A stretch of DNA of 64,000 nt from Yoonia vestfoldensis SKA53 (lineage in GTDB: Bacteria > Pseudomonadota > Alphaproteobacteria > Rhodobacterales > Rhodobacteraceae), in assembly GCF_000152785.1 (NCBI RefSeq), contig NZ_CH672414.1, positions 833,472-897,471 of the forward strand, in the 5' to 3' direction. The stretch's first letter is position 1. Each line of letters begins with the position of its first letter. The position numbers and the translations under genes are program-made. This document shows positions 7,949 through 60,373 of the stretch, in pieces. A model generated the notes under the pieces. The model saw only the letters and a program-made list of their open reading frames with translations, searched no databases and had not been told where the DNA came from.

Positions 7949-7967
7949 ATTGGCGGAGAGACAGGGA
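7949..7967. repeat. Left attachment site of island (attL)
   Basis: 19 bp identical to the last 17 bases of the tRNA-Ser gene at 42118-42134 plus two bases beyond it. No intact tRNA is present at this end. A GGAGAG/CTCTCC inverted pair (7955-7960 and 7977-7982) brackets the core and may reflect the remains of the displaced tRNA end. Confidence 0.92.
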
Positions 7968-18483: not shown

Positions 18484-19047
18484 TTATTCATAAGTATTCA
18501 CTTGGCTGCTGATTAATGACTTCTCGATAGACTCTATTTCACTGAGTGCAGTGCGGAACGCAGAACGATCATAGCGAATATGCTCTATTGCATCCCGAAT
18601 GCTGTCCAGAGCTATCACCTTGCGACGTATTTTACCCTTAACTCCACTTCTTGGGGTTTCATACTTATGCACTCTCAGAAAGGTGCCTGCGTCATTGGTG
18701 TAAGTCAGGTCGATATTGCCATGAACGAGATCATTACGAAAATCTTTGGTGCGTTTTAGGTTTTCAAACCATTCATCGACATCAATTTTACCTGATGCGT
18801 CATGCAGTTTCGACAGTTCGGTGATATTTTTGAAGAAATGGCATGCGATATCCAGACGCTCTGCCGCATTCATTGGAGGACGGCTAGACCTCTTTTCCCC
18901 ATGCTTGTAATGAAAACTTTCCATGATTTCAGGATGGGTACGTGAGGCCATCCAGACGAATTCATCCATGGCATATTCAGTGCGCCCCATATCAAGGAAG
19001 AATTGCCCGACAATTTCATGAACTTCTCGTGTGATTTGTTCAGACAT
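18484..19047 (-). CDS. Small protein with HEPN-type Rx4H motif
   Basis: 187 residues, predicted largely helical. The segment KDFRNDLVHGNID carries Arg104 and His109 in the Rx4-6H arrangement that marks HEPN ribonucleases, following a helix that starts DEWFENLKRT. I do not recognise a specific named family. The gene starts four bases after the HNH endonuclease stop, so it is translationally linked to the methylase/helicase block. By analogy with other HEPN proteins in defence operons it could be an RNA-cleaving effector, or a non-catalytic HEPN-like subunit; this is inference from one motif plus context. Confidence 0.6.
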   Translation of the reverse strand: MSEQITREVHEIVGQFFLDMGRTEYAMDEFVWMASRTHPEIMESFHYKHGEKRSSRPPMNAAERLDIACHFFKNITELSKLHDASGKIDVDEWFENLKRTKDFRNDLVHGNIDLTYTNDAGTFLRVHKYETPRSGVKGKIRRKVIALDSIRDAIEHIRYDRSAFRTALSEIESIEKSLISSQVNTYE

Positions 19048-19051: not shown

Positions 19052-19804
19052 TCACCCCTCAAACAAATGCATGCGATGCCAAGCCAGACGTTTTCTGACT
19101 TCATCGTTCATGCGGGTTAGGTGCATGTGGGAACTAATCCCGGATGAAATCTGGTCACCTTCGCTCAGCTTTCCAGAAATCAGAATTCTGCCGTCATCCT
19201 CAAAGGTGATGAGCCCCGCATCGAAGGCTGCATCCAGTGTAGCAACCAGCAGCAGCCCGTTATGGACATTCAGGCGCTCCTCATCACTCTCACAGGTGGC
19301 CCATGGAATGATGTGGCTGGCACGCAGAAGAGTTGGGTTCTGGACGCCCGTCACTGCACAAGATTTTTCCCAGTAGGTCATCAAAGCGGAGCGAAACACA
19401 TTTTGCCCAATCCGCTCTTTGCGCAGCCGCTCAACTTCGGTGGTTGAGGGTGCTTCTCGCATCAACCGCTCGAACTCAGCCAAGGGTTCATTGGGCAGAG
19501 AGCGTGCCAAGGCCCAAATGCGTCCGATAATCCTGAACAGTTCACCAGAACTAGGGGCTATGAAGCAATCAAAGCCGCCGTGGTTCTGGGGTGCTATCTC
19601 AAGCTCTTCAGCCAGTTCACTGCCAACGCCAGGGTGAGATGTACCCACCATGAACACACCATCATCGCTTCCTGACAACACCAGCCTTGTCGGGACCGCA
19701 TGGGCCTGAAACACAAGCCAGCCATCGCTTTCACCAAGCGAAATCGAGAACCCCTGATCGAGGGCAGACTTCTCCAGACGGTTACGAAGGCTGAGATCCA
19801 TCAT
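19052..19804 (-). CDS. HNH restriction endonuclease
   Basis: 250 residues. The C-terminal half is an HNH domain typical of restriction endonucleases: CAVTGVQNPTLLRASHIIPW, then LNVHNGLLLVATLDAAFDAG. The His in SHIIPW and the Asn in HNGLLL are the expected catalytic and structural residues. The N-terminal half may be a DNA-recognition or adaptor domain. Its start overlaps the methylase stop (TGATG), so it is probably the cutting partner of that methylase or of the helicases. Likely target is DNA lacking the methyl mark. Confidence 0.88.
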   Translation of the reverse strand: MMDLSLRNRLEKSALDQGFSISLGESDGWLVFQAHAVPTRLVLSGSDDGVFMVGTSHPGVGSELAEELEIAPQNHGGFDCFIAPSSGELFRIIGRIWALARSLPNEPLAEFERLMREAPSTTEVERLRKERIGQNVFRSALMTYWEKSCAVTGVQNPTLLRASHIIPWATCESDEERLNVHNGLLLVATLDAAFDAGLITFEDDGRILISGKLSEGDQISSGISSHMHLTRMNDEVRKRLAWHRMHLFEG

Positions 19805-22800
19805 CAGTGTCCTGTCAGCTTATCGAATGCTTCCAGAACAAGGCGTTGGGTGCGGTATTCACCAAACTGGTTGATTTCCTTGTTCTTCAGGCCACGGAAG
19901 GTCTCTGACGGATAATCGACGCCTTTGATGTCATGAGGGTCAAGCACATAGCGCAGCTCATCTCGTGTCAGGCCATATTTCTTGGCGAAGAATGCATCCA
20001 GCTCTGCACGTAATTGTGCCCGCCTGTCAGGGTCAAAGGCAAAGGGTGCGCCAGTATAGCCAAGGTCTTCAGCCCACGGGCGCATGGAGTGGCTGGTATA
20101 GGTGAGTTCAAGTATGCGAGGATCAATAAAATCAAAATCAAAAACATCAAAGTCATAAGGTTGAACGAAAGCAAACTGTTTGACGTATGTATACGTCATG
20201 GATGTACCACCCAGTTTTTGCCGAGTAATAAAATCAAAAGTTAAACACGAGAAGCCTGCCAGTAATACTTTCGTCCTCTGAACACCTTCTGGAAGAAAAA
20301 TTAATGGTAATTTATGCCCGACGGCTGATAGCGGTAGAATGCTTGAGATCATCGTGCGCTCGTTAGTAGAGTTTGAAATGTCACGAAAACCCATCAGCCA
20401 ACGTGGCTTTTTTCGATCAATCAAATCCCCGGCCAGTTCCAACCAGCGCCCGCCATAATCCTTGATGAATGCTAGATCATCGTGGTCGAGCGGCGTATAT
20501 CTCTGCATGTCCATTCCACGAGGAGCAGATGCGCTCAACCAGTTTTGTAGGCTTCTACCAATAACATTTGAGGAGGTGGCCTGTGAGCCAAGAGTATTTG
20601 AAAGATGCTCCTGGATATCTCGTAGGGACGACACAGGGTTCAGCGGATACAGGCCAGGTGTTGATCCAAGAACCCATTCAGCGAGGATTTTGAGGCAACC
20701 TTCAGCGTCGTCTTTTTTGAAGGCTGTCTTCAGCCGTGTCGGCACACGAGATGCCCGCATATCGACTTCATCTTCAGGCACCCAGTAGCGTGGCGTGGGC
20801 TCAAAATTGGGGTCCTGCTTTTCCTCAAGGGTTACGTCTCGAACGCCTTGTTCCTCGTCTTCACCTTCATAGGTCGCCCAACGATGATCGTAATGATGGA
20901 TCATCTTAGCTTCATAAAGAGGCACATAAAGCCGACTGTCTGGGTGCTCCCAGTCTGTGCCTTTGCGTGAGAAGCCTATCTTCTCCAGCTCTTCGACATT
21001 TTTGAACTGATCAGAAGCAGTGGTCATGTTAAACAGACCCTGCTGAAAACTGATCCCCCAAGGGTTTATGTCGCCTTCAGGATTATCAGAACGCTCTTCT
21101 ATCAGAACTGGAGCCTTGGAATAAAGCTTTGCTGTTAGTTCGGCATCAGCACGTGAACGAAACACTGGTGCCGTTTTCGTATTCGGGTTGATGGCTGCGA
21201 TTTGGTCAGGGGACAGCGTGAAGCGGCGCTCTTTCTCCTCATACATCGTGGTATTTTGAAGGAAGAATGCAAAATCAGCCTTATCGGAGGGGCCAATAGC
21301 AAGGATGGAGAACTTCATTCGGCTATCGACGGCAGGGAAAAGTTTTTCTCTGTTTTCGAAGTCAATGATTGCTCGAAGGCGTTTTGTAGACACCAAGTCC
21401 CCAAAGAAGCCGCTGTTCGAGCTGTCAGTTGCTATACCCGTTGGCACAATCATGCCTGCACGGCCTGCGGGTGCTTCACGCACGCCGCCTGTATCCGCAA
21501 TGGCTTGCAATAACGAGCTTTGTGGAGACTTTTCCAGCGGGGTTCCCCGCCTAGCCAGCTTTGAAAAATGCTCTGCAAAGAGTGAATACGTGTTCAGTTT
21601 GCCAACAGCCGTTTTCTCAAATCGTTTTGAGGCACGGATGAAAGTGTTGTTCGCTTCAAAACCCCGTTTGGACATTTGGAACTCATTCCACAGCGCCGGG
21701 TTTTCAGCTTCAAGCCTTGTTATTGCTCTTTTGCGCTTGTCCCCAGGAAGTGCGGCAATTGCTGCGTCTTTTGCGGCAAAAAACTCAGTTTCGTTCAGCT
21801 GCGAGACTTCCCAAGGCGGGTTCCCCAAAACAGCATCAAACCCACCCCGTGCCATGACAGCGGGGAAGGCCAGAGGCCAGTGAAGGGCACTATTGGCCTC
21901 GGAGATGGTCGTTGCATTCTCTTGCAAGATGTCCGAGCGGATCTTCCCGCTGACGGCTTCCCACATGGCCCCCGTTGTTGGCACTGGCATATCGACCAAG
22001 GTGCGTGCTGTTGGGGCCTCACCCACTTTCGGGGTGAAGAACGCTGCCACATACATATCACATGCAAGCTTGAGGCGTTGCCACTGGTCAGAGGCTTCAT
22101 AGCGGGCAAAGGCCCGTGCCTTGCTCTTGACCTCTTGTAGGGTTTCTTCTGGCATGGCCGCAATTCGCCGTGCGCCATCCACAATCTCTGCAGGTGCTGC
22201 AAGCGAGCGGATGAAACCTGACGCAGCCTTTCCGTCTCGTTCATCCTTATTCAGGCGCTCAAAGGCTTTTGCCACGGCTTTGTCGTCACCTGACATGACC
22301 GAGTAGGCATCATCAGGGATGCCGGCCTTTAGCATTTCATAGTCAAAGATCCCGATCAGGCTGTCCCCACATTTGATGCGGGCATCAAGGAACGAGAGAG
22401 GTTTGCCGGGTTCGAGAGCTTCAATCCACAAGGCCACCTTACACAGCTCAACCGCCATCGGGTTGCGGTCAGACCCGAAGATACAGCTACTGACCACTTC
22501 TCTCAGGGCATGCTGGAAGACTTCTTTGCTGATGGCCCCAGGCATGCGGTGTTGGGCAATACGGGCAGCAGCACGCCGAGCAGCACCCAGCAGGAAGTGG
22601 CCGGAACCACATGCAGGGTCGATGATTGATAGTTTGAGCAGCTCTGCGGCCGGATCGTTTGGATTCCGGCTTTCAGCGGCATCCAGAACCGGATCAAGCG
22701 TGGTATCGAGGAGAAGTTTAACCAATGAATCGGGCGTATAGTAGGAACCGGACACTTTGCGGGCGTTGCCTTTGGTCGCATCCCCTTCTGCAAAAGTGAA

Positions 22801-24159
22801 ATCCCGTGCCTCAAGGTTCAGCTCTGGTGTGAGTTCCAGCAGGCTTTCATAGACCGAACCAAGTTCTTCGGTCTGCATATCCCGCCAGTTCACCTTGGTC
22901 ATCGGCTGACCTTCAGGGCGGAACCATGCGATGTGCCAGATCGCTTTCAAAAAGCGCTTATTCTCAACCTTGCAGGCCGTCAGGTTCGAAAGCTTTTCAG
23001 GCTCGAACAATCCCCCCAAGGCGACAAGTCCCAAGGCACTCTGGCCGTCTGCCAATGCATTGAAGAGGGATTTCATACCCTCCCAGGCATCGATGTTCTT
23101 GTCCAATGAGCCGTTGCGGACACAGCGTTCACGCAAGCGGTGCAGGGAATAGCCCCCAATATATGCCTTGCGAGCATTATCGGGTGTGTTGGGTGCATGA
23201 AGAAGGTCTCTGTCTTCAGCCGCAAAGAGGAAGATGAGGCGGTAGACCAAGCGGAGCAGTTCTTCATAAAACGCTTGGCGCTTTAGCTCGCCGGTCTGAA
23301 ACTTCTCCCTGAGATTGGTGTTGTTAGGATGCTGGATAAATCCTCGGCCCAACTCGATCAGTGCGGCTTCCACACCAAGTCGCAGATTGTCCTTGGCTGC
23401 TGCACCATCAAGACGGCTGCGTTCTTTCCACCGCTCAAGCGGGCAGTCGGATGGGCTGGTGCCATCGCCGCCAAAACGGGATGCATGCAACAAAAGCCAA
23501 AGCGCAGAAAAATCCGGAAACAGGCCCTCCGAGAAGATTTTCTCAAGGTTGATCTCAATCCAAGCCGGACGTGTCAGGCTGGCATTATCACGCAAGATTC
23601 GCAGGATGCTTCCGTCACATGTGATGCCCCAGAGTGCATCCTCATCTGCGTTCAGATACTCCTGCAGAAGTTGGGTTGCAGATCGCTTGCGGGTGTCGTC
23701 CCCGAACTGTGAGAGTGCTTCATCGATCCCGGGTTTGCGGCTCTCAGCAGGTGAGGAAGGTGCAATGATTAGCGGGATACGTCCGTTTTCGGCGGAAAAG
23801 TTAATCGGAAACTGGCGCTCTGAAATGACCTTACCAGAGGACTTGGAAAGCGTCTTGAAGCCAAAACACTCACTCAGCAGGCTCTGGACGAAGCCAATAG
23901 GCGCACTGGCGTTGGATCCTCGTGAGACTTCGAAGCTTTCCCAATGGGCATGGGCGATTTGGTAATATCGGGCAATCTCGTCCCTGAGCTTGAGACCTTT
24001 GGGGACACCATAGCTTTCATCCGATTGCTCGCTGGCATCACCGGCTGCGATTTGTGCAATCACTTCACTTGGGAGCAGACCACCCACTACCTCGATGGCG
24101 GCGAAATCCAGACGTGCGGAACGGCGGGATTGCTTACGTCTTTTTGTCATTCTTGCCAT
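19804..24159 (-). CDS. Eco57I-type adenine-specific DNA methylase, DrmMI/PglX-like
   Basis: 1451 residues. SAM-binding motif I is IIDPACGSGHFLLG near residue 515 and catalytic motif IV is VLGNPPWEV near 779, the NPPW signature of N6-adenine methylases. A SGSYYTPDSLV block precedes motif I, as in Type I and IIG methylases. The N-terminal 450 residues resemble the long helical leader of PglX and DISARM MI proteins; I see no convincing PD-(D/E)XK nuclease motif in it. The C-terminal part should be the target-recognition region. It is encoded 10 bp after the SNF2 helicase gene and overlaps the HNH gene, which argues for a methylation-based self/non-self system. Confidence 0.87.
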   Translation of the reverse strand: MARMTKRRKQSRRSARLDFAAIEVVGGLLPSEVIAQIAAGDASEQSDESYGVPKGLKLRDEIARYYQIAHAHWESFEVSRGSNASAPIGFVQSLLSECFGFKTLSKSSGKVISERQFPINFSAENGRIPLIIAPSSPAESRKPGIDEALSQFGDDTRKRSATQLLQEYLNADEDALWGITCDGSILRILRDNASLTRPAWIEINLEKIFSEGLFPDFSALWLLLHASRFGGDGTSPSDCPLERWKERSRLDGAAAKDNLRLGVEAALIELGRGFIQHPNNTNLREKFQTGELKRQAFYEELLRLVYRLIFLFAAEDRDLLHAPNTPDNARKAYIGGYSLHRLRERCVRNGSLDKNIDAWEGMKSLFNALADGQSALGLVALGGLFEPEKLSNLTACKVENKRFLKAIWHIAWFRPEGQPMTKVNWRDMQTEELGSVYESLLELTPELNLEARDFTFAEGDATKGNARKVSGSYYTPDSLVKLLLDTTLDPVLDAAESRNPNDPAAELLKLSIIDPACGSGHFLLGAARRAAARIAQHRMPGAISKEVFQHALREVVSSCIFGSDRNPMAVELCKVALWIEALEPGKPLSFLDARIKCGDSLIGIFDYEMLKAGIPDDAYSVMSGDDKAVAKAFERLNKDERDGKAASGFIRSLAAPAEIVDGARRIAAMPEETLQEVKSKARAFARYEASDQWQRLKLACDMYVAAFFTPKVGEAPTARTLVDMPVPTTGAMWEAVSGKIRSDILQENATTISEANSALHWPLAFPAVMARGGFDAVLGNPPWEVSQLNETEFFAAKDAAIAALPGDKRKRAITRLEAENPALWNEFQMSKRGFEANNTFIRASKRFEKTAVGKLNTYSLFAEHFSKLARRGTPLEKSPQSSLLQAIADTGGVREAPAGRAGMIVPTGIATDSSNSGFFGDLVSTKRLRAIIDFENREKLFPAVDSRMKFSILAIGPSDKADFAFFLQNTTMYEEKERRFTLSPDQIAAINPNTKTAPVFRSRADAELTAKLYSKAPVLIEERSDNPEGDINPWGISFQQGLFNMTTASDQFKNVEELEKIGFSRKGTDWEHPDSRLYVPLYEAKMIHHYDHRWATYEGEDEEQGVRDVTLEEKQDPNFEPTPRYWVPEDEVDMRASRVPTRLKTAFKKDDAEGCLKILAEWVLGSTPGLYPLNPVSSLRDIQEHLSNTLGSQATSSNVIGRSLQNWLSASAPRGMDMQRYTPLDHDDLAFIKDYGGRWLELAGDLIDRKKPRWLMGFRDISNSTNERTMISSILPLSAVGHKLPLIFLPEGVQRTKVLLAGFSCLTFDFITRQKLGGTSMTYTYVKQFAFVQPYDFDVFDFDFIDPRILELTYTSHSMRPWAEDLGYTGAPFAFDPDRRAQLRAELDAFFAKKYGLTRDELRYVLDPHDIKGVDYPSETFRGLKNKEINQFGEYRTQRLVLEAFDKLTGH

Positions 24160-24169: not shown

Positions 24170-26968
24170 TCACAGCCCCGGCATCAGCACGTAGAACCCG
24201 ATGATATCAACGGGTGTGATAGCGGTGACCTTCACCTGTCCTTTTGAACCCAAAGCCTGACGGACCCTGATGTGATCACGGGCCAGTATTTCAGAACGAT
24301 CACGGGCAAATTGTGACAAGGCAGGCTGAAGACTATCGAGGCTGTTTATTGCTCGCTCAATCTGGGAGCGTCTGCTGGCCTCATCGAGATTTTCTCCATC
24401 TCGGTCGAGCAGGGCAAAAGCTTCGACGTTCCACAAAAGGGGCTGCTTGGAGCTGGCGCTGAAGGCAATCGCTGAGGATTCCTCTGCCATGGCAAACTTG
24501 GGCCCCAGCTTCCCTCTGGAGTCGATACGGTGGCGCACACGCAACAAGGCAAGCCATGTCACCTCTTCAACAGCGTCTGTTTCCCATGCACCCAAGCGGG
24601 GCAAAGTGGACAAGGCGTTTTCATCGGCAAACTCATCCAGTGCCTGTTCAAGAAAGGTCTCAGCCAGCACCGATGGAAGAGCGTGCGCACGATGGACGGA
24701 AATGGTGCCTATGGGGGGTCTTGCAGAAAAGCCAACTTTGAGCGGCTTGATATCTGCATCTTCAATCAGGCTTTCAGAGATGAAGCGTTCTTTTATGTGG
24801 TCAGGAACCAGATGAAGGGAGGCTTTATAGGCCCCTGATTTTAGCTGCTCCAAAGGTTGCCCAAGACGCTTCATTGCCTGGAAAACAAAACGTTCCGTAT
24901 CCTCATAGCCACCAAGTGCTGTTTGCGTGGCCTCCCACTCAACCGCAACCTCTTCGGGTTTGAGAGAGTTTTGGGCAAAGATTGTGCGGGTTTTCTTCTC
25001 CTGCTCGGATGCATTCACCCAAGCCATCTCAATCTGACGTGCTTCTTCAGAGGTACTGAAATCGAGGTCCAGCGTCATCTGGGCATGACCCCTTGCTCTG
25101 AGCATGACCGCAGACAGAAGGGCCTTGGTAAGGCTTCCCTGATCGTCTGGCATGGGAACACGCACACCAGTTTGTTTGGCGATAGCTTCCGCTTTGCGGA
25201 TGATGACTTCGAGCACAGCCCCATCAACTGGGTTATTTTCGCCATACATCAAAATGGAGCGCACCACGGGGGCTTTTTGACCAAAACGGTCAATACGGCC
25301 TTCCCGCTGTTGGTGACGGGTCGGGTTCCAAGACAAGTCGTAATGGATGACCGCATCAAACCAGCCTTGAAGGTTTATACCTTCTGACAGGCAGTCTGTA
25401 GCCACCAGAATGCGGTTTTCATGGCCACCCAGTTCCTCAACACGGATTTCACGCTCTTCAGAGGGAATGGATCCTGTGATGACTTCAACCGTGTGCTTGG
25501 TGGCAAACTTTTGAAGAGCAGCCCCGATCTGTTCTGCAGTGGCGATGTAACGACAGAAGATGACGGGCGCATGCCCCTTGGCCAGCAGATCCTTAAGGGC
25601 AGAAATGAGAGCTTTAAACTTTGGGTCTTTTTCGACCTCTCCTGACAATCTGTCAGCAGTCTCGATCAATGATTTCAGGCTGGCATCCTCGATACCTATA
25701 CCTGGTTCGAGATCGTTTTCGGAGAGTTCCTCATCATCCAGAGTTTGTGCGGTCAGTTCACTCTCGGAGACGGATGTTGGATCCAGTTGCGCTCTGGTTT
25801 TCAGCGCACGGGCAGCGGCAGCGGGGCTGGACCCCACACAACGCATCAAAGCAAGCGTTCCCCAAAATGCGAGACGCTTTCTTGTCTCGCCTTCCACGGA
25901 TTCAATCACTTCAGCGCAATAATCGAGGATTCTGCCATAGAACTCTTCATATTCGCCCGTCAGCCGGTATTTCAGCTCAGAGCTTTCATGTTGTGGAAAG
26001 AGACCAGGTTCTTTCCAAGCATCGATGTCACGACGACGACGCTGGATGAAATGTGACGCCAACCGTTCCCGAAGCTGGCGTTGTTTGTCACCTGATGCAT
26101 CCTGCAGAGCTGCAAAATCCCTGTCCAGCAGGCCAAGCAGATTGTGGAAAGCTGTCTCGTCACCTGAGTGGGGTGTAGCGGTCAGCAACAGAAGGTTGCG
26201 TTCGGGATCATCTGCCAGCGAGCGCACCAGCTCATAACGTCTCTGGCGTCCACGACCGGCACTGACGGCAGAGTGGGCTTCATCGACCACCACCATGTTT
26301 GGGCAAGCACGTTTGAAATCAAAAAACCGCCGTTCGCTTTTGATGAAATCCATCGAAACAACGGTGAAGGGGTAGGCTTCAAAAATGGATACTGTGTTGG
26401 GAAGATTGCGTTCAAGACGGGCAGCTTCTGATGCGGTCACGGGTGTGGCAGGGATAGAGAACTTGCTTTCAAGCTCTCCTGTCCACTGTTCCACAAGATG
26501 AGGTGGGCAAAGGACGGTGAAGCGGTCAATCTCGCCACGATCCAGCATTTCCCGCAAGATGAGGCCAGCTTCGATGGTCTTACCGATACCCACGTCATCA
26601 GCGATCAGTAGACGGATGACATCTTGTCTGAGGGCCATCATCAAGGGTGCCAGCTGGTACGCCCTTGGCTCGAAATTAATGCGACCAGCGGCACGGAAAG
26701 GGCCAGCCCCTCTGCGTAGTGACAGACGCAGTGCATCCCGCAAAAGCTGTGCTGCATCCCGTCCACCGATCTTTTCAAAAGCGGTTGGCGGCTCAAAACT
26801 GGCATAAGAAACGGGTTCCGCTTCCAGTTCCGGAATAATGGTTTCCAGGTCGGATTCAGACCCAGAAAGTGGTCGCAATGTCAGGGCGTTGGATGCGTCC
26901 ACGACAACCCATTCACGGCCTCTTGCACGCACCAGCTCACCAGGAGAAAACTGTTCTGAAATACCCAT
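24170..26968 (-). CDS. SNF2-family helicase, DrmD-like
   Basis: 932 residues. Motif I is LLIADDVGIGKTIEAGL (124-131), motif II VVVDEAHSAV (229-232), and motif VI QREGRIDRFGQ near residue 560, with the LLTATPHSG motif III. The EPRAYQLAPLMMAL block before motif I is shared with DISARM DrmD and HepA/RapA-like SNF2 proteins. Such proteins translocate on double-stranded DNA. It starts three bases after the DUF1998 helicase stop with GGAG in between. Pairing with an adenine methylase is the hallmark of class 1 DISARM. Confidence 0.87.
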   Translation of the reverse strand: MGISEQFSPGELVRARGREWVVVDASNALTLRPLSGSESDLETIIPELEAEPVSYASFEPPTAFEKIGGRDAAQLLRDALRLSLRRGAGPFRAAGRINFEPRAYQLAPLMMALRQDVIRLLIADDVGIGKTIEAGLILREMLDRGEIDRFTVLCPPHLVEQWTGELESKFSIPATPVTASEAARLERNLPNTVSIFEAYPFTVVSMDFIKSERRFFDFKRACPNMVVVDEAHSAVSAGRGRQRRYELVRSLADDPERNLLLLTATPHSGDETAFHNLLGLLDRDFAALQDASGDKQRQLRERLASHFIQRRRRDIDAWKEPGLFPQHESSELKYRLTGEYEEFYGRILDYCAEVIESVEGETRKRLAFWGTLALMRCVGSSPAAAARALKTRAQLDPTSVSESELTAQTLDDEELSENDLEPGIGIEDASLKSLIETADRLSGEVEKDPKFKALISALKDLLAKGHAPVIFCRYIATAEQIGAALQKFATKHTVEVITGSIPSEEREIRVEELGGHENRILVATDCLSEGINLQGWFDAVIHYDLSWNPTRHQQREGRIDRFGQKAPVVRSILMYGENNPVDGAVLEVIIRKAEAIAKQTGVRVPMPDDQGSLTKALLSAVMLRARGHAQMTLDLDFSTSEEARQIEMAWVNASEQEKKTRTIFAQNSLKPEEVAVEWEATQTALGGYEDTERFVFQAMKRLGQPLEQLKSGAYKASLHLVPDHIKERFISESLIEDADIKPLKVGFSARPPIGTISVHRAHALPSVLAETFLEQALDEFADENALSTLPRLGAWETDAVEEVTWLALLRVRHRIDSRGKLGPKFAMAEESSAIAFSASSKQPLLWNVEAFALLDRDGENLDEASRRSQIERAINSLDSLQPALSQFARDRSEILARDHIRVRQALGSKGQVKVTAITPVDIIGFYVLMPGL

Positions 26969-26971: not shown

Positions 26972-29900
26972 TTACTCCTTAAGAGCCGCTTTAAGCTGAT
27001 CCATGACGACAGCTCTTTGATTGGGGTCCGGCGGCAAACTGAACAGCGTGACACCTTTTGCGGTTAGCGCCGATTGCAGTTCATCAGTGATGTGTTCATC
27101 ATCCAGCGCCACAATCCGCTTTTTGCGCCAGACCAGCTTGATGCTTTGGCCTGCAATAATCAGTGGATCATTATCCCCTTGGGGCAGAACGAAATCATCG
27201 GGCACCATGATTGCCGATGTCACGGAGACGCCATCCATTGGGGCAGGATCACGTCTTGTCTCTTGGGGTGGGGAGGTGGTGCTGAAGGCAAGACGCAACA
27301 GCATTTTTTGCATGTCCTCATCACGACGCTCGATATGTTCGTGATCGGGTTGATTGAAATACGACAGGACGCAACGGTAGCAGCCTGCCACACATTCAAC
27401 CTGGGGCTTCTGGACAAGAGCACTGACATCCTTCTTAGCCGCATCAAAACTGGAGGCTTCAAAGTGCATGATTTCGAGTGCTTTGCGTGCAACCAGCGCA
27501 ATGCTGTCTTTTTCAGAGATCATCTGGCCCAAGGCACCGGCACCACCTTCGGCAGCTTCATAAAATAGAAGCGCACGGCGGTCCTGACGTGATGGAGTGG
27601 GTTCCACGAGGATTTCACCCTCTTCAAGCTGGAATACCGCCTCAATACCTCTGGCCAGTGCATGTTGAAGCGTTGTCAGGGTCTTGTCTGACTCCTTGCC
27701 AAGCTCGGCAAACCATTCCTCATCAAAGCGGATGAGCAGGGCGTTCTTGCGGTCTTCGACCAAGGGCACAATCAACTGGGTCAGCTTGTCCGGACGCTCT
27801 TCATCGCTTCCGTCATCTTTCGGCTGACCGACCCAGACCCCTGTCTTGGGGTTGATAAAGAAACCGATCTGGGACTTGTCCTTGCGTCTGCGCAGCCCCT
27901 TGTTGATGCGGCTGATATAGGCTGCTTGGGCGTAATCCACGGTGATGATATCACCATCATCATCGGTGACAGCCATGGATGCGGTATAGCTGGACGCATC
28001 AAATGCAAATGTTGTCTGGATCTCGAAACCTTGCCGTTTACGCTCCTCATCATTTGACGTGATGCGCTCTGCAGGACGGGTTCCTACGTTTTCAATCTTG
28101 TAAAGATTGGTCAGTGGGACTGACTTACTCAGGGCCGTGTTGCAGACATGGCATCTTTCCGGATGCTCTCCATCATGGCTGGCCCCACAGGATGGGCAAA
28201 GCGCACGAGCTTTGGTGGAAAGATAACCATCATCACGATCACCGGCTTCCTTGAGTAGCGCACGGTCCACTCTGAACGCACGGCCTTCGTGATAGACAAG
28301 GCTTTGTGGCCCGAACTCGGAGATTGCCAGAAAACGGGCCCGCTGGATGTAGCGCTGATTGCGCCCATCATTGCCGCCCTGCACATAAGCCATCAGGGGC
28401 AAGCGGGGGAAGTTGTAACCAGGCAGGAAGCCTTCTGTCGCCAGATAGCGATACAAGTAGAAATCATTATCCTTGTTGGATTGGTTCGAGAGCAAAATTG
28501 ATCGCTGGAACTCACCCATACGGCGGCGCTCTTCTGCAGCTTTCCGTTCAGGGGGCGAGATCGTGTAGTCTTTGAGTGCCTGATCGGCCAGCTCAATGGA
28601 GCGTTCTGCTGCCTTGAGAAGATCACGCCAGCGATTGAAGGTCTCGTTGAAGCGGGCAGGTGCCTGCGCAACGATGTTTTGGGTGACCTGCTGGCGGGTT
28701 TTAAACCAGCGAGGATAATCTCCCGCATAGTCTTTTTCGAGTGCTTTCAGGACGCCATCGATGAGGGGGCTTGCCCGTTCCGCTGTGCGTTTGGCTGAGG
28801 CGACATCCCTGATTTCCGGCAAGAGAGCCTTGGCAGGATCTGTCAGGTCGAGGTTGGACTTGATGTTCTTGTCCAGCTCGATGCTGTCAGTTTTCAGCTC
28901 CATACCCAGTGATGCCAGCCATTCGGCATTCAGGTGGCTTTCGACCAGATCACGGTTTTTGAGATCGATGGAGGGTGGAACCACGACACCATCCACAAGA
29001 TCCGTTTTGCGCTCGAAGAAATACTGGTCATGCGGGCTTTGTGCGGCACAGTAGGTCAAAATGAGAGCAGCTTGCCCGCTTCGACCGGCACGGCCACTGC
29101 GTTGCGCATAGTTTGCTGCCGTGGGCGGGGCATTTCTCAGATAGACCACGTTCATGGCAGAGATATCGACGCCAAGCTCCATAGTCGGTGAACAGAACAG
29201 TGTCGGCAGGAAGCGGCTGTCTTCTTTAAAGTTTTTGAGCTTTTCTTCTGCTTCGATCAAGGATTTGCGGTCATCGCTGCCATAGCGGAAACGCATTTCT
29301 CTGAGTTCACGCAAATCGCCTTCAACTTGGGCTGTATGCTCCCGGCCTTCAAAGCCGAACAGGGTCTCACCTCCCGCTTCCAGCATTTCTGCAATCTTGA
29401 GATAGACGCCGACGAAGTATTCATTTTGCAGCTCGGCGTTCTCATGGGCTTCATCAAGTGCGAATTGAACAGTGGATCCAGCAAGACGCCATCCCATACC
29501 GCCAAAGGGTCCAGCTTCCTTGACCACGGAGCCATAGTTTTCCGAAGCCTTTAGAAGCCCTTCCATCACTTCGGGGACCTCTTTGAGCTCAATCCTGCGG
29601 CCCGCAAAGGTCATGTCACGGATTTTGCGCCCAATGGTGCTGGTCGGGCTCCCACGAAGAAGCTTGTCCTCATCCTTGTTCTTCATTTCCTTGCGCTTAG
29701 GCGGGTCAGTCATGAAGATTGTTGAGGTTACAATGCGGTCTTCCTCGATATTCCAAGGCGACTTGATGAGGTTGTGGTTCTTGCCTGATAGCTCTTCGAG
29801 TTTGAGACGGTTCAGTGCGCCACTATCAACAGCAAGACCTTTACGCATGTGGTCGTAAACGGCCTTTAGCGCCCGCTTGCGCTCTTCCGGAGATGCATTG

Positions 29901-32245
29901 CTCAAAATCGGAGAGGCTACGAACTCGCCCTCATCCGAGGCGATGTCATCAAGGTATTTGTATCGGGCAACAAGCAATCCCAACTGTTCCAGATTTGGGT
30001 TCGTGTAGCGCCAGCCTCTGCGCTGATCGACCCAGAAAAGATGTTGGAGGTTTTGACGTAAGATGGCTTCAGCATCATTGCGGCGCTCGCCTTTTACGCC
30101 TGTGTTGACGAGCCATTCATCTGCACGGTTACTGAACTCCGAAGCTGCAAGAAACTGTAGTGACCTTTGAACTTCCTGGCCAATATTGGCTTCTTCAAGC
30201 ACTCCCCCAGGAGCCTGCCTCAGGGCATTGATGATCGCCCCACGCAACATTGTGACAAACACAAAGTCGTTGAAATGACCCGCCTGCAACGCTGCATCCT
30301 GGCGGTTGTCGGTGAAGGCCAGAAGCTTGCGTGAATGCTTTTGGATTGTGGAATCCGGACTATTCATCCAGCGCAGGACAGTAGACAGCAGAATTGTGGT
30401 GGCTGAACTTCTGCTTTCAGCACTCAAAGATGCCAGTTTGTTCATATCCCGTGCAGAGGAGATATTCACATCACGACATGATGGGCAAAAACGATATTTC
30501 CCTGGAAGGAACCAAGCTTGTCTCATTCCGGAATGTGCTGTGCCATCAGGACGAACTGAGTATTGTTGCGCCCGTTTTTTCCGGTAAGTGGGCTTCAGAC
30601 GCTTTTCGCCGTTGGGCTTTTCGTCCAGCCATGCATCCGGATAATCTTCATCTTTTCCGGAAAATGTGAACTCGTCATCATTCGGCTGCGGCATCAAAAA
30701 GCCCCAGTCAGCTCCCTCATCATCCTCGTCGCCGTCTACAGGGATGTCATCGATTTCCCGCTTTTCGAAGACTTCCATGCCGTCATAGTTGCGCAGTGTG
30801 ACCGGATGGAACTCCTGACCACAGCTTCGGCAGAAGTGGGTTGGATAGAGGCGCTCTTCATCATTGATGGGGTTAAAGATCTGACCGCTGAAGGTCACGT
30901 CACGATGTCCCTCAGGACGCAGGGTCATATAAAGGCGTCCAGCACCCGCAACGAACTGGTGTAGCTTGAACGCAAAAAGCGGCGAATGTTCCTGACTGCC
31001 TGCAACACGGTCTTTTTCAGGAATGCTGTAGCCAATGAGCGTTTCACGCAAAGCGCTGGCACAAAGCTCCGCTGGGAGACCAGAATCCTGCGAAAGGGAG
31101 TTGGCCGCATCTTCCAAAGAGATCGGTTTTGCCCGCTCTGGCTTGGTTTCTACATTCTTGAGGCCGATCTTGGTCTCAACCCAGATTGCGAGCGGGTCAT
31201 CGAAGAAGTCGCTGTTCTTGAGGCCGATGGCGACCTCACCTTGAGCAGCCTGCTGAACGGCTTCTTTAAGCCCTGGTAGACCAGAGCTACCGATTTTAAT
31301 CGGGTTGGTAACCCTTTTCAGAGTTTCGGTAACGACAGCATCCGGCCCGATATCTGCACCAAAGATTTGACCTGCAATACGGGCAACAGCTTCGTTTTTC
31401 TCATGCTGTGCGCCTTCGGATGCCATTGTCGCAGAGGTGCCAATACACAAAGGTGGATTTTGTGGATCCCCGATACGAGAACGCAGGCGGCGCATCAGCA
31501 TAGCGACATCTGCACCCTGACGGCCACGGTAGGTGTGCAACTCGTCAAGAACGATAAACTGAAGCCCTTCGCAATTCTGCAAAACCTTGCGATCCAGATC
31601 GCTCTGGCGTGTCATCAGCAGTTCAAGCATCATGAAGTTGGTCAGCAGAATATCTGGCGGATTAGCCTTGATGAGTTCCCTGTCCTCAGCGCTCTCTTGA
31701 CCAGTATAGCGGGCATAGGTGACCAAGCCGCCCGTGGCGGAACCCAGATAACCCTCAAGTTCCTTGGCCTGACTGTTGGCCAGTGCGTTCATCGGATAGA
31801 CGATGATAGCCCGTGTTTTGGCTCCGCCTCCGGCTTTTTTTGCACGAATGGCCGCATCTATGATCGGAATAAAAAAGCATAATGATTTACCGGAGCCAGT
31901 GCCTGTTGTGACCACATAGCTCTGGCGGTCTTTAGCAAAGCTGATCGCCTGTTCCTGATGCTTTCTGAGCTTCAGGGTTGGGTCTTCTTGATTGGCAGGC
32001 CCCCATTTGTCAGTAAAGATATCCAGACATTCCGGTTCAAGGATACCGCCCTTAACGAAATCCCTGATGGACCCGCCGGAAGCGTAGTGTGGGTTAATCT
32101 GTAGAAGTGGCTCTGGCCAGAACCGCTTGTCATCATAAAGTGCATCGACTTTGGATGCGATCTCAGGTGAGCGGATTTTGGTGAAGGAGCGAGAAAACGC
32201 CTTGTATTGTTCGATAACAAAATGATCGAGATTGAATACGTCCAT
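26972..32245 (-). CDS. Giant DEAD/DEAH helicase with DUF1998 domain, DrmA/DrmB-like
   Basis: 1757 residues. Superfamily 2 core: Q-motif region LRKHQEQAI, motif I TGTGSGKS (114-121), motif II DELH (234-237), motif III SAT (271-273), a long insert with CxxC zinc pairs near residues 473 and 590, and motif VI QRSGRAGR near 1050. A zinc ribbon (CPSCG...CHVC) lies near 1358. The C-terminus has the DUF1998 four-cysteine cluster ECVAGCYRCVLSY near 1620. MrfA/YprA helicases have this order but are about half the length; DISARM splits the helicase (DrmA) and DUF1998 (DrmB) into two genes; DruE of Druantia is another giant DUF1998 helicase. Its start overlaps the repressor stop (TAATG). Likely a translocase that senses or unwinds invading DNA. 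Confidence 0.87.
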   Translation of the reverse strand: MDVFNLDHFVIEQYKAFSRSFTKIRSPEIASKVDALYDDKRFWPEPLLQINPHYASGGSIRDFVKGGILEPECLDIFTDKWGPANQEDPTLKLRKHQEQAISFAKDRQSYVVTTGTGSGKSLCFFIPIIDAAIRAKKAGGGAKTRAIIVYPMNALANSQAKELEGYLGSATGGLVTYARYTGQESAEDRELIKANPPDILLTNFMMLELLMTRQSDLDRKVLQNCEGLQFIVLDELHTYRGRQGADVAMLMRRLRSRIGDPQNPPLCIGTSATMASEGAQHEKNEAVARIAGQIFGADIGPDAVVTETLKRVTNPIKIGSSGLPGLKEAVQQAAQGEVAIGLKNSDFFDDPLAIWVETKIGLKNVETKPERAKPISLEDAANSLSQDSGLPAELCASALRETLIGYSIPEKDRVAGSQEHSPLFAFKLHQFVAGAGRLYMTLRPEGHRDVTFSGQIFNPINDEERLYPTHFCRSCGQEFHPVTLRNYDGMEVFEKREIDDIPVDGDEDDEGADWGFLMPQPNDDEFTFSGKDEDYPDAWLDEKPNGEKRLKPTYRKKRAQQYSVRPDGTAHSGMRQAWFLPGKYRFCPSCRDVNISSARDMNKLASLSAESRSSATTILLSTVLRWMNSPDSTIQKHSRKLLAFTDNRQDAALQAGHFNDFVFVTMLRGAIINALRQAPGGVLEEANIGQEVQRSLQFLAASEFSNRADEWLVNTGVKGERRNDAEAILRQNLQHLFWVDQRRGWRYTNPNLEQLGLLVARYKYLDDIASDEGEFVASPILSNASPEERKRALKAVYDHMRKGLAVDSGALNRLKLEELSGKNHNLIKSPWNIEEDRIVTSTIFMTDPPKRKEMKNKDEDKLLRGSPTSTIGRKIRDMTFAGRRIELKEVPEVMEGLLKASENYGSVVKEAGPFGGMGWRLAGSTVQFALDEAHENAELQNEYFVGVYLKIAEMLEAGGETLFGFEGREHTAQVEGDLRELREMRFRYGSDDRKSLIEAEEKLKNFKEDSRFLPTLFCSPTMELGVDISAMNVVYLRNAPPTAANYAQRSGRAGRSGQAALILTYCAAQSPHDQYFFERKTDLVDGVVVPPSIDLKNRDLVESHLNAEWLASLGMELKTDSIELDKNIKSNLDLTDPAKALLPEIRDVASAKRTAERASPLIDGVLKALEKDYAGDYPRWFKTRQQVTQNIVAQAPARFNETFNRWRDLLKAAERSIELADQALKDYTISPPERKAAEERRRMGEFQRSILLSNQSNKDNDFYLYRYLATEGFLPGYNFPRLPLMAYVQGGNDGRNQRYIQRARFLAISEFGPQSLVYHEGRAFRVDRALLKEAGDRDDGYLSTKARALCPSCGASHDGEHPERCHVCNTALSKSVPLTNLYKIENVGTRPAERITSNDEERKRQGFEIQTTFAFDASSYTASMAVTDDDGDIITVDYAQAAYISRINKGLRRRKDKSQIGFFINPKTGVWVGQPKDDGSDEERPDKLTQLIVPLVEDRKNALLIRFDEEWFAELGKESDKTLTTLQHALARGIEAVFQLEEGEILVEPTPSRQDRRALLFYEAAEGGAGALGQMISEKDSIALVARKALEIMHFEASSFDAAKKDVSALVQKPQVECVAGCYRCVLSYFNQPDHEHIERRDEDMQKMLLRLAFSTTSPPQETRRDPAPMDGVSVTSAIMVPDDFVLPQGDNDPLIIAGQSIKLVWRKKRIVALDDEHITDELQSALTAKGVTLFSLPPDPNQRAVVMDQLKAALKE

Positions 32246-33123
32246 TAAATACGCTCCTTCGTGCCCAAAACCTCATCGCGGTTCAAAAGCACAATCTGCT
32301 GATCTTGTGGTCTGCGTGCAGCTGGGTCTGTATCCAGCCCCAGGCGTTTGAGTGCATAAAACAGCATCGCTCTACGCAGTGTGATTTCACTCATGCCATC
32401 ATTCATCCCATAATCCAGTGCGATGACATATTTCTGGGTCGCTGAAAGCTCTGGATGCGGCCCAATTTTAAGGGTCACTTCCGTGTTCCAGTCACTGTCA
32501 TCAGTGGGGCTGGAAACTGGTTCCTGCGTGCCTGTCACTTCAAGAATCCGGCTCAGCAAGAAGTCTTTGAACACATTATCGTTCAAACAGAATGCCCGTG
32601 CATGCCAGCGGAAGCCGTCAAAAGCGAGACTATGCGGCTCTATCCAGCGCAAAGCCGGGTCTGGCCTACTGAATGACTGGTAGAGCACATGGATACCGTG
32701 ATGTTCACGTATGGCTAAGACCACATCCCGCAGCACATCAGGCTTCACACCCCTGACTGGGGTGGGGGGTGCGCCATAGCCAGGAAGGGGCAGGATCCAG
32801 CTCCGACTTGCCTCCAGAAGCCCTTGGTCTACAGCTTGCAGCTGAGCGAAGAACTCGGATGCATCAGGCTGCATGAAGCGGGGGCGGAAGTTCTTGCCCC
32901 GAACATAGGTGCGCAGGCTCTTGTCGTAGGAAAGGTTACTTTTGCGGCCTTCGATGTAGCTTGCGAGGTCGTTGGACGCCTGCTGCTTTGATATCCCGAA
33001 GACTTCCATAAGGTCGCTTCGGTTGATGTGACCCGACCAGTAGAGACGGAACTCGATGAACTGATACCGCTGTTCAACGGTCCAATTGGTCTTGCGTCTT
33101 GAAGCTGCTCGTGTCCCTACCAT
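32245..33123 (-). CDS. BrxR/CapW-type WYL transcriptional repressor
   Basis: 292 residues: an N-terminal winged helix-turn-helix (EQRYQFIEFRLYWSGHINRS, then DLMEVFGISKQQASNDLASY), a WYL domain (HGIHVLYQSFSRP, WIEPHSLAFDGFRWHARAFC) and a C-terminal WCX-like region. This layout and the opening residues match BrxR and CapW, which repress BREX, CBASS and other defence operons and respond to a ligand or damage signal through the WYL pocket. It is the first gene of the leftward operon, coupled to the DUF1998 helicase by a TAATG overlap. A perfect inverted repeat lies 11 bp upstream of the start codon, consistent with autoregulation. Confidence 0.92.
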   Translation of the reverse strand: MVGTRAASRRKTNWTVEQRYQFIEFRLYWSGHINRSDLMEVFGISKQQASNDLASYIEGRKSNLSYDKSLRTYVRGKNFRPRFMQPDASEFFAQLQAVDQGLLEASRSWILPLPGYGAPPTPVRGVKPDVLRDVVLAIREHHGIHVLYQSFSRPDPALRWIEPHSLAFDGFRWHARAFCLNDNVFKDFLLSRILEVTGTQEPVSSPTDDSDWNTEVTLKIGPHPELSATQKYVIALDYGMNDGMSEITLRRAMLFYALKRLGLDTDPAARRPQDQQIVLLNRDEVLGTKERI

Positions 33124-37718: not shown

Positions 37719-38450
37719 TCACGAACCCACCTGAGTGGCCATACGCCCCTGACCGGCGGACCACCGCTCCAACGTAGCATAGGCTGCTGGAAGATCACTC
37801 TTGATCCTGATTACTGTTGCCCGTGACAGGCCTATCTCCCTTGCGATGGCACTTGCCCCCATTTCCCTCGCTAAGAGGCACTCGGTGGCTTCGAGTTGAT
37901 CTCTGGTGAAGCTAGGCTTGCGCCCTCGGTACTTGGCTTGATCAGCCTTAGCATGTTCAATGCCTGCCCGCTGCGCCTCCCTCGTGGCCTCAGCCTGAGC
38001 CTGAGCCATAGCTGCCATGAAGCCGATAAGGGCGTCCCTGACAGCCTCTGACATCGCGTCTGTGGTGGCCCCATCAAAGGTTAGGCCGTTGATCACCGTC
38101 TTAATGATCACGCCCCGTCTCATGAACTCTCGGATGGTATCGGTCACATCTTGGTAGTTGCGGCCTAGGCGGTCCACCCAGCGTACCAACAGTGTATCAC
38201 CACGACGCAGTAGGTCGAACAGGCGCTTGCCCTGTGGCCTCTCTGCCAACGGTACGGCCACGCCTGATACCCCTGCATCTGATACGACCAGATCGATGTT
38301 GAAACCCGCTGCTCGGGCCTGAGCTTCTTGATGACCGATAGTCTGCTCTGTCGTGCTGACCCTTGCGTAGAGAATGGTCTTCGTTTGGTGATTACTGGTC
38401 GCAGGACTGCTCGCACTGCTGGTCGCCTTGCTGGTCATGTCTGATCCCAT
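37719..38450 (-). CDS. Serine recombinase (resolvase/invertase family)
   Basis: 243 residues. The catalytic domain begins TKTILYARVSTTEQTIGHQE with Ser as nucleophile, and has the conserved LLVRWVDRLGRNYQDV arginine block. The C-terminus is a helix-turn-helix (ASAIAREIGLSRATVIRIKS). This is the small Tn3-resolvase/Hin-invertase type, which cuts and rejoins DNA at paired inverted-repeat sites. An upstream TTG start exists, but the ATG at 38450 (or 38438) is more plausible. Two inverted repeats directly upstream are candidate crossover or operator sites. It could resolve, invert or stabilise the island. Confidence 0.88.
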   Translation of the reverse strand: MGSDMTSKATSSASSPATSNHQTKTILYARVSTTEQTIGHQEAQARAAGFNIDLVVSDAGVSGVAVPLAERPQGKRLFDLLRRGDTLLVRWVDRLGRNYQDVTDTIREFMRRGVIIKTVINGLTFDGATTDAMSEAVRDALIGFMAAMAQAQAEATREAQRAGIEHAKADQAKYRGRKPSFTRDQLEATECLLAREMGASAIAREIGLSRATVIRIKSDLPAAYATLERWSAGQGRMATQVGS

Positions 38451-38459
38451 CGGTGATGT

Positions 38460-40679: not shown

Positions 40680-42041
40680 TTACTGCTCGACGTCACCCAA
40701 AGGGCAATTTGCTAAGTTGATGTGCGAAAACGATAAGCTCTCTAAAGCATCCTTACGAACTTTCAGGCTCGGCCCTGAGCCATAGTTGCCGGCGACATCG
40801 CCAGAGGCATGCCCAGTGATGAAGTCGTTCACTTCCTTGGAGACCCCCGCGTCTCTCAGCATATCCTTGAAGTTCCCCCTTAACGAATGCACCACTTTGG
40901 CCTTATCATCCGTCACCCTCCTGATCAGCGGCATGAGAGCTTTTGAGGCGGACGCCTGAGCCTTCCCATCCTTGTCGCGGGTGAACTCGGGGAACATCTG
41001 ACCGACCTTGCCAGTGGTTGCTTCGCTGGTCCTGCCGCTGGTCACCCACGAAAGGCTTGAGTGAACTGGCACCCGCCGCTGTGAGCCTTTGTTCTTTACC
41101 AGCTTGTCGCTCAGGTCGTAGTAGACCACGCCTTGTTCTTCCTTGATGTCCTCCCAGTCCAGTAGGGCTGCTTCGTCCAGCCGCATTCCTGTGGTGATCA
41201 GGATCGTCAGCAGCTTGCGCTGGTGGTCTGGCATGGATTGCTTGAAGATTGCTTCGAGTTCACTTGAGGTAAACGGGCGATAGCTTTCCTTGGCACGTCC
41301 TACTTTCTTGTCGAGAACGATGCCTACGAACACGTTTTGTGGAACCCAGCCCTTGCGCACCGCATGATCAAACAGGCGTTTGACATAGCTGATTTTCTTG
41401 GCAATCGTCTTTCGGCTCTTTGTAGCCCCGAGATGGTCTGCGTACTGGTGGATCAGCACTGCTGTTAGGTCGGTAAGGACCATGTCACCTGTGAAGTCCT
41501 GAAATTGGCTCAGAGACAACTCGCAGTCGCGCGTCGTCTTTGCTGGGCCATAGGGGTGGGTCTCCAGATACTCGCGAACTGCGACAGACAGAAGGACCGC
41601 ATCAGCGGCCACGTGCCCCTTGGCGGTCTTAGCTTTCCACTCACGGTACACCTCGAGTGCCTTCGCGCCTTGCTCGTTGACCACGTCAGTCGCTAGGTCG
41701 TTCTCAGGGTCTTCCACGTACTCGAGGTTCTTGTTGTACTGGATCAAGCCCTCAAGATGCCCTTCGTCCTCCATTCGCTGAACTTCATCGGCCTCTCCGA
41801 TGTAGCCAAGCAGGTGGCTTATTATATCGCGTATGTCCGGTTTGCAGGCATCAAGCTGTCCATAAAGTTCTGTGGCAATGCCGTGCTGACGACGTTTGGC
41901 ATCTCGTTCGTCGCTGGTGCCTGTGGAACGCTTTAGCTGCTTGCGGTCACCGAAGTGTACTCTGAGGTCCTGAGGAATGGTCAGGTAAACGTACCATTTG
42001 CCTTTGTTCATCGACAGTGTTGTGGCGGGATACTCAGACAT
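40680..42041 (-). CDS. Tyrosine integrase of the island
   Basis: 453 residues of the phage-type tyrosine recombinase family with a DUF6538-like N-terminus (MNKGKWYVYLTIPQDLRVHF). Catalytic residues are visible: Arg in TTGMRLDEAALLDW, the His-x-x-Arg box in HSLRGNFKD, His in GHASGDVAGNYG and the Tyr in the same block. The start ATG at 42041 has GAGGAG seven bases upstream. The gene points away from, and begins 77 bp from, the tRNA-Ser 3' end, the usual place for the integrase of a tRNA-targeting element. It should catalyse insertion and excision at the 19-bp repeats. Confidence 0.93.
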   Translation of the reverse strand: MSEYPATTLSMNKGKWYVYLTIPQDLRVHFGDRKQLKRSTGTSDERDAKRRQHGIATELYGQLDACKPDIRDIISHLLGYIGEADEVQRMEDEGHLEGLIQYNKNLEYVEDPENDLATDVVNEQGAKALEVYREWKAKTAKGHVAADAVLLSVAVREYLETHPYGPAKTTRDCELSLSQFQDFTGDMVLTDLTAVLIHQYADHLGATKSRKTIAKKISYVKRLFDHAVRKGWVPQNVFVGIVLDKKVGRAKESYRPFTSSELEAIFKQSMPDHQRKLLTILITTGMRLDEAALLDWEDIKEEQGVVYYDLSDKLVKNKGSQRRVPVHSSLSWVTSGRTSEATTGKVGQMFPEFTRDKDGKAQASASKALMPLIRRVTDDKAKVVHSLRGNFKDMLRDAGVSKEVNDFITGHASGDVAGNYGSGPSLKVRKDALESLSFSHINLANCPLGDVEQ

Positions 42042-42115: not shown

Positions 42116-42134
42116 ATTGGCGGAGAGACAGGGA
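42116..42134. repeat. Right attachment site of island (attR), tRNA 3' end
   Basis: 19 bp identical to 7949-7967. It covers the CCA end, acceptor strand and part of the T-arm of tRNA-Ser, so the tRNA gene remains intact at this junction. Confidence 0.92.
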
Positions 42135-42207
42135 TTCGAACCCTGGGTGGGCTTGCACCCACAACGGTTTTCGAGACCGCCCCGTTCGACCACTCCGGCA
42201 CCTCTCC
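42118..42207 (-). tRNA. tRNA-Ser (anticodon CGA)
   Basis: The reverse strand gives a 90-nt class II tRNA: acceptor GGAGAGG pairing with TCTCTCC, anticodon loop CTCGAAA with anticodon CGA, a long variable arm (GTGGGTGCAAGCCCAC) and a T-loop GGTTCGAATCC, ending GCCA with CCA encoded. It reads UCG serine codons. It is the integration target of the island on its 3' side. Confidence 0.95.
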
Positions 42208-60312: not shown

Positions 60313-60343
60313 CAGCGAACGACATATTTTGTCATATAAAACA

Positions 60344-60373
60344 AAGGGTTGCATATTTTGCAGCCCTTTTTTT
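60344..60373 (+). terminator. Rho-independent terminator after rpsI
   Basis: AAGGGTTGCA (60344-60353) and TGCAGCCCTT (60359-60368) form a stem with one G-T wobble, followed by a T-run to 60373. Confidence 0.85.

Follow-up and report, generated by a model that had tools for sequence, protein, structure and literature searches.

What would cut the DNA in a defence operon whose helicase ends in a nuclease-type domain stripped of its catalytic residues? The question is raised by a minus-strand operon in a 64,000-nucleotide stretch of the Yoonia vestfoldensis SKA53 genome (contig NZ_CH672414.1, positions 833,472 to 897,471; hereafter “the window”), and in particular by its gene for a 1757-residue YprA-type helicase with a DUF1998 domain. 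This protein belongs firmly to ARMADA Type I. ARMADA was described only in 2025. The best explanation for what is seen in the window, and a probable one, is that the protein is the ArmC helicase of ARMADA Type I, here in an HNH subtype whose DNA cleavage passed to a dedicated HNH enzyme. While the gene order and the Vsr nuclease of Type I were already known, what is new here is a degenerate Vsr tail going together with a downstream HNH gene.

In the preprint of Bell et al. (2025, PMC12458937), Type I systems carry a YprA helicase, a BrxHII-like helicase and a PglX-like methylase, in that order, and the C-terminal domain of both Type I and Type II helicases is predicted to be an active Vsr-type nuclease. 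The ArmC of Type I further carries BrxA-like, beta-barrel zinc, MarR-like and coiled-coil domains. The ARMADA helicases are described there as most similar to those of Druantia, and in E. coli a Type II system was found to provide direct, non-abortive defence for which the helicase and methylase motifs are required. In the main text of the preprint “HNH” occurs in a reference title only, although the figures and supplement may hold it, and no other paper on ARMADA Type I nucleases stood among the literature matches listed. A review from 2026 places ARMADA among the systems restricting by unknown mechanisms (PMC12904381). If the HNH reading is true, the branch names the cutting subunit, and it becomes predictable which active site counts where: that of Vsr in one set of systems, that of HNH in another, and perhaps either of them in the set with two nucleases. 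It would also provide an ordered example of defence operons exchanging fused and free-standing nucleases.

The helicase and its operon

The helicase reading frame is complete, starts with ATG and has no internal stops, while the plus strand over the same positions holds many. Pfam recognizes a DEAD domain at residues 95-276 (E 2.7e-26), Helicase_C at 984-1057 (E 7.5e-9) and MZB at 1526-1626 (E 8.1e-10), the latter being the MrfA zinc-binding domain, also named DUF1998. Frame and Pfam thus agree with an earlier reading of this DNA, made from the sequence only, which had put helicase and DUF1998 in one chain. The motifs lie where it had placed them, with TGTGSGKS at 114-121, DELH at 234-237, QRSGRAGRSG from 1048, and the DUF1998 cysteine cluster, announced at about 1620, found as CVAGCYRC at 1618-1625. 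The size, about twice that of MrfA and close to that of DruE, was also correctly appreciated. A long insert with CxxC pairs had been called unusual. In a 13-row alignment that includes the window protein, the cysteines of the pairs at 472, 587, 1350 and 1365 are kept without exception or in no less than 90% of rows, so the pairs are not due to chance. An insert bearing CxxC pairs is described for this branch in the preprint (PMC12458937). The sequence-only reading mentioned neither the strand nor the operon, nor the degenerate tail of nuclease type beyond DUF1998 (residues 1641-1757).

It is from the operon, overlooked in that reading, that the identity of the protein follows. On the minus strand a WYL regulator, the YprA-type helicase, a BrxHII/SNF2-like helicase, an N6-methylase, an HNH nuclease and a 187-aa protein follow one another in a tightly packed run. 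Five alphaproteobacterial plasmid relatives, read with their annotation, have the same gene order and the downstream HNH gene, and a sixth is degraded. The window system shares with ARMADA Type I the DUF1998-bearing YprA helicase, the BrxHII-like helicase and the PglX-like methylase in order, the CxxC-bearing insert, and a location in a defence island beside an integrase and a tRNA; it differs by its degenerate Vsr nuclease, the HNH gene downstream and the WYL regulator in front. The Vsr nuclease that is predicted to be active at the C-terminus of Type I helicases is degenerate in the window protein; this domain is taken here as typical of Type I and not as defining it, and the window system is filed as a variant. 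With the Type II system of E. coli NCTC 12900 the three core genes are common, but the Type II order was not found here; the trees described below contain no Type II sequence.

Relationship to DruE, MrfA and DISARM proteins

Whole-chain profiles of 13 ARMADA-type helicases, the window protein included, were compared with those of 6 DruE, 5 DrmA and 6 MrfA proteins, the reference loci having been verified against PADLOC in part (6 proteins). The match to DruE extends over 1493 columns (probability 100, E 6e-111), as against 194 columns for MrfA (probability 99.6, E 2e-24) and 108 for DrmA, taken from five DISARM-type loci (probability 94.6, E 6.6e-8). When the DUF1998 half was compared (48 rows), DruE matched with a probability of 99.4% over 405 columns (E 3.3e-21), DrmB with 17.6% over 100 columns (E 0.0014), and MrfA with 0.7%. 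In PADLOC the helicase is matched best by DruE models (297 bits), DrmA reaching 56 bits, and no DrmB model is present among the best 25 of 29 matches. In a Foldseek search with a model of residues 1255-1757 (mean predicted local distance difference test score, pLDDT, 84.7), only MrfA (6znp) and DrmB (7s9v) gave E<0.001, as expected because a canopy is common to these proteins. The sequence-only reading had seen a combination of DrmA-like and DrmB-like parts, but the affinity runs to DruE. A DrmA-DrmB fusion was considered and rejected, the similarity to DrmA and to DrmB being local only in the profile comparisons.

With DISARM the window system has in common a methylase and a helicase of the SNF2-like kind, together with helicase and DUF1998 parts that are distantly alike. 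DISARM, however, has these two parts in two genes, as the sequence-only reading had stated, and the separate drmA and drmB genes are not what is found here; according to the preprint the single chain is typical of the family and the split peculiar to DISARM (PMC12458937). DISARM also typically carries a phospholipase D-type (PLD) nuclease, DrmC. No Pfam PLD domain was found in the 18 island proteins scanned, and the PADLOC model PLD_Helicase, which matches the BrxHII-like protein, does so in its helicase part (426-589). A search for the DrmA family in 299 genomes gave no match, its controls being likewise silent, and a search of viral contigs yielded no relatives. As for MrfA/YprA repair helicases, these have about 750-830 aa and form a separate clade, and the window protein is not one of them.

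In a tree of the DUF1998 region that included DISARM, DrmB fell among the ArmC rows on a branch 5.6 changes long. This placement was not used, because of the long branch and because the alignment failed at the Walker motifs of DrmA. A replacement tree was therefore built without DISARM (47 rows, 1261 columns, quick search, with the Shimodaira-Hasegawa-like approximate likelihood ratio test, SH-aLRT, as only support), including 6 DruE rows and with a long-branch warning at DruE. In it the window protein joins rows that have the ARMADA gene order, MrfA and the two DruE groups lying elsewhere. The ArmC rows of this tree are labelled by gene order and, as no published ARMADA accession is included, the assignment to Type I as opposed to Type II rests on gene order. 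The profile comparison and tree that the sequence-only reading had proposed as a check thus reveal no clear affinity to DrmB; a position firmly inside DruE, which together with that lack would have refuted it, did not emerge, the protein standing beside DruE in a tree from which DISARM is absent.

Decay of the Vsr-type tail

The last residues of the helicase stand in place of the Vsr-type nuclease. Relatives from gammaproteobacteria and other groups keep the Vsr residues SxxE, DFxY, xDG and H; in the alignment, the nearer relatives of the window protein, like that protein itself, have the tail stretch but no longer these residues. Among 117 full-length helicases, 50 tails were classed as intact and 67 as degenerate, one intact tail (L157, a D-F-F-W variant that the motif pattern called degenerate) having been reset to intact by eye before counting. 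The E, both D, the G and the last H are identical in 50/50 intact rows and scattered among the 67 degenerate rows; the classing, from which the remaining strictness partly follows, made no use of the E. Annotating Type I helicases as nuclease-bearing would be wrong for more than half of these relatives (67 of 117), in a sample biased to the window protein's kin.

Is the tail a Vsr domain in decay, or another domain put in its place? A hidden Markov model of the Vsr tail, trained on 43 intact rows with no HNH found, gives 0.1 bits on the window tail and a median of 3.6 bits (maximum 121) on the 60 degenerate rows with HNH, while five intact rows with HNH, outside the training set, score 141 to 152 bits. 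Since 13 of the 67 degenerate tails still exceed 30 bits, the loss is graded, which argues that the Vsr domain decayed rather than being replaced by something else. The AlphaFold model of the window tail is folded, with block pLDDT values of 80-95 over residues 1685-1757.

The HNH endonuclease and its association with degenerate tails

The HNH protein has a Pfam HNH_2 match and a model with a mean pLDDT of 95.6. Its residues 109-250 match VcaM4I (6yex) with Z 17.8 and 34% identity over 137 residues, and its HNH domain matches TagI with Z 10.6. The best rows for the N-terminal residues 1-105 are the DNA-binding domain of phage T4 MotA, a weak match (Z 7.4). The protein is like VcaM4I in its catalytic domain, while its N-terminal part has no match in the alignment with that enzyme. 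H164 and N182 are identical in 60/60 aligned homologues; model and alignment thus indicate an HNH fold in which the catalytic His and Asn are conserved. In a phylum sample of 200 genomes, in which at most 13 candidates were scored per genome (13 in many), the full-length protein occurs in two, the window's own genome and one where it lies beside a BrxHII remnant; another 15 genomes match in the HNH half only. This second locus (L225) has the full-length HNH at 11788-12573 (minus strand) and a BrxHII remnant of 68 residues, while neither ArmC nor the methylase has a match in 31 kb; it is a decayed, fossil ARMADA.

The relatives used to relate tail and HNH were taken from plasmids, from a genome collection (80 of 562 confirmed loci kept) and from whole-genome searches. 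Downstream DNA was fetched up to 20 kb where possible, loci fetched solely for this purpose not being counted as rows, and a system was scored as having no HNH only if at least 11 kb downstream were seen, which leaves 19 of the 117 unscorable. Loci were dropped because they came from the window's own genome (L001, L002), were partial (L011, L012, L014, L057, L065, L076, L078, L087, L091, L095, L152), degraded (L016) or copies of other rows (L077, L174, L175); near copies such as L043/L100 and L080/L081 remain among the 117.

An HNH gene accompanies 60 of the 62 scorable degenerate tails and 5 of the 36 scorable intact ones (31 without). In the subset where BrxHII and methylase were both found, 59 degenerate systems have it and 2 do not, against 5 and 19 for the intact, with 14 unscorable. 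Fisher's test on the two-by-two table (p 5e-18) takes no account of kinship and is not counted as evidence here. Two systems share a genome in 3 of the 34 genomes searched: L068/L098 and L049/L170 each combine one degenerate system with HNH and one intact system without, and L071/L171 are both degenerate with HNH. The pairwise distances of HNH follow those of ArmC in 60 systems (Spearman 0.77, 0/999 permutations as high, host kinship not removed), the corresponding values in the same systems being 0.89 for BrxHII and 0.53 for the methylase.

Other systems have varying genes between methylase and HNH, of Schlafen/AlbA, HD, IrrE-like, UvrD-like and SMC-like kinds (e.g. L025, L034, L020, L015). 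Because these differ between systems while the HNH stays downstream, the gap seems to be a slot taking up guest genes, and more defence genes may be embedded there. The SMC-like gene has no tie to HNH, lying there in 22/65 systems with HNH and 6/33 without.

Order of events

When the 47-row tree is rooted on MrfA, its 14 HNH-bearing rows form one clade (SH-aLRT 100), which divides into two Vsr+HNH rows and 12 HNH-only rows. Rows outside this clade yielded no HNH, some of them having been seen over less than 11 kb. The five systems with two nucleases are betaproteobacterial and belong to one nine-row branch, whose other four rows are two degenerate ones with HNH and two that are intact but unscorable. 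The 117-row tree can be read as showing one Vsr loss at the root of the large clade, two within the two-nuclease branch (L048 and L071) and one outside it (L148), three of these four losses falling on HNH-bearing branches. The picture is one of an HNH gained first and of repeated Vsr loss thereafter, with Vsr-only, Vsr+HNH and HNH-only systems nested in this order; it amounts to the history of a single clade, replicated in part. We incline, by a small margin, to a distinct ARMADA subtype present in Alpha-, Beta- and Gammaproteobacteria, Myxococcota and several other phyla, which gained an HNH enzyme and whose Vsr then decayed. Two-nuclease intermediates would survive from this passage, and the helicase complex would feed DNA to a nuclease acting in trans, much as the nuclease of DISARM is a separate gene.

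Mechanism and alternative explanations

A degenerate Vsr and an operon-end HNH suggest that the cutting job changed hands. This proposal is built on the gene order, the family membership, the loss of Vsr residues, the conservation of HNH residues, the linkage and joint inheritance of HNH and ArmC, and the nested order. The following mechanism is drawn from the E. coli Type II results (PMC12458937) and from the parts found here, the HNH cut being the step added by this analysis. The methylase would mark host DNA by adenine methylation; the BrxHII-like and YprA-like motors would engage unmarked incoming DNA and travel along it; and this DNA would then be cut, the host not being killed. In the degenerate-tail branch the cut would be made in trans by the operon-end HNH endonuclease, acting on helicase-handled DNA, with the dead tail now presumably serving as structure or as a dock.

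Several observations weigh against this. No experiment on Type I or on its HNH was found in the literature. The changes are few, with a minimum of 4 for Vsr and 3 for HNH on the 117-row tree, so that the two-by-two count does not represent 60 independent cases, and an independent-pairs test, which takes kinship into account, found 2 usable pairs and no support. In L063 and L148 a degenerate tail is without HNH over the 16 and 14.5 kb seen, respectively, and five systems retain both nucleases. Six of the 65 HNH calls are below 200 bits, four of them clipped by locus or contig ends (two are complete in longer loci); the call in L084 (151 bits) comes without the usual gene order, and that in L058 (36 bits, no Pfam match) is doubtful. 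The HNH gene adjoins the methylase in 18/65 systems and often lies several genes behind it. Finally, the best solved match of the tail model is the endonuclease-like 3hrl (Z 7.9, 80 residues, root-mean-square deviation 3.4), a suggestive hint at an endonuclease-like fold, in a Z range that the tool calls “possibly common”.

Because its nearest solved relatives are of the modification-dependent class, being TagI, so titled, and VcaM4I, an EVE-HNH enzyme (PMC7897488), the main rival explanation makes the HNH protein a separate nuclease of Type IV-like character, carried along in the operon against phages whose modified DNA would evade discrimination by methylation, the decay of Vsr being unrelated drift. 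Such a passenger would agree with the retention of both nucleases in five systems and with the variable genes before the HNH. It is nevertheless unlikely: residues 1-105 aligned to no EVE or SRA domain among the 50 matches listed (one not excluded), in the 200 genomes the full-length protein was met nowhere but beside ARMADA genes or a remnant of them, and it is co-inherited with ArmC, and three of the four Vsr losses, as read from the tree, are on HNH-bearing branches.

The tail could also be structural in a system that needs no operon nuclease, the helicases blocking phage DNA uncut and the HNH merely helping, which would fit both the predicted folding of the tail and the mention of ARMADA among systems of unknown mechanism (PMC12904381). 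We consider this improbable, given that the Vsr residues are kept in 50/50 intact rows (partly by classing) and H164 and N182 in 60/60 HNH proteins; with one or the other set so strictly kept, nearly all systems seem to be under selection for a cutting site. Lastly, the helicase might be that of a Druantia relative with new partner genes, DruE being the closest large single-chain YprA helicase by profile and the source of the best PADLOC models. This has very little in its favour otherwise, as no model of a Druantia partner gene such as DruH is present among the PADLOC matches listed for 17 window proteins, the tree groups the window protein with ARMADA-order rows outside both DruE groups, and the resemblance to Druantia is what the preprint itself reports of ARMADA helicases (PMC12458937). 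An ArmC helicase whose cutting partner is the HNH enzyme is thus preferred.

The island and its other genes

The operon lies inside a 34.2-kb integrated island (7949-42134) bounded by 19-bp direct repeats, with a guanine-cytosine (GC) content lower than that of the adjoining flanks (Table 1). An empty integration site was not found in 31 genomes, the strain's own included: no match spans the joint outside the tRNA stretch, and the flanks lie apart.

Table 1. Positions in the window of the helicase, its domains, the other operon genes and the island elements.
Feature	Positions	Strand	Basis
ArmC-like YprA-family superfamily 2 helicase with DUF1998/MZB, 1757 aa	26972..32245	-	frame, Pfam, alignment, profile comparison, tree
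RecA1/DEAD domain, residues 95-276; Walker A TGTGSGKS 114-121, DELH 234-237	31418..31963	-	
RecA2 motif QRSGRAGRS, residues 1048-1056	29078..29104	-	
MZB/DUF1998 zinc domain, residues 1526-1626; Cys 1618/1622/1625	27368..27670	-	
C-terminal tail, residues 1641-1757, where the Vsr-type nuclease would lie; without its catalytic residues; compact fold predicted	26975..27325	-	
WYL-domain regulator, 1-nt overlap with helicase start	32245..33123	-	
BrxHII/RapA/SNF2-like helicase (ArmA-like), 932 aa, GIGKT 127, DEAH 229	24170..26968	-	
PglX/DrmMI-like (Eco57I) N6-adenine DNA methyltransferase (ArmB-like), 1451 aa, NPPW 780	19804..24159	-	
HNH endonuclease, 250 aa, start overlaps methylase stop	19052..19804	-	
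187-aa protein, final gene of tight run	18484..19047	-	
Tyrosine integrase of island	40680..42041	-	
tRNA-Ser (CGA), probable integration site	42118..42207	-	
Left 19-bp direct repeat copy (island end)	7949..7967	.	
Right 19-bp direct repeat copy, in tRNA 3' end	42116..42134	.	

The methylase has no match in the PDB sequence collection. The 187-aa protein has zero blastp matches in the other loci searched, and bears a faint resemblance to HEPN_Apea (E 0.13). Behind the ARMADA run, the minus strand encodes at 12942-18398 an 1818-aa protein with DUF4011, a superfamily 1 helicase and an MTES_1575 nuclease, matched in PADLOC by PDC-S37 (919 bits) and Hhe (643 bits), which is probably a second defence gene. 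It is followed at 10794-12923 (minus strand) by a 709-aa protein with GmrSD_N and a C-terminal Schlafen/AlbA_2 domain, and an AbiH abortive-infection protein is encoded at 8441-9367 on the plus strand, just within the left end of the island. A resolvase gene is found at 37719-38510 in the island. Outside the island, a second low-GC stretch (44%) with strong GC skew (0.22) occupies 60001-63000.
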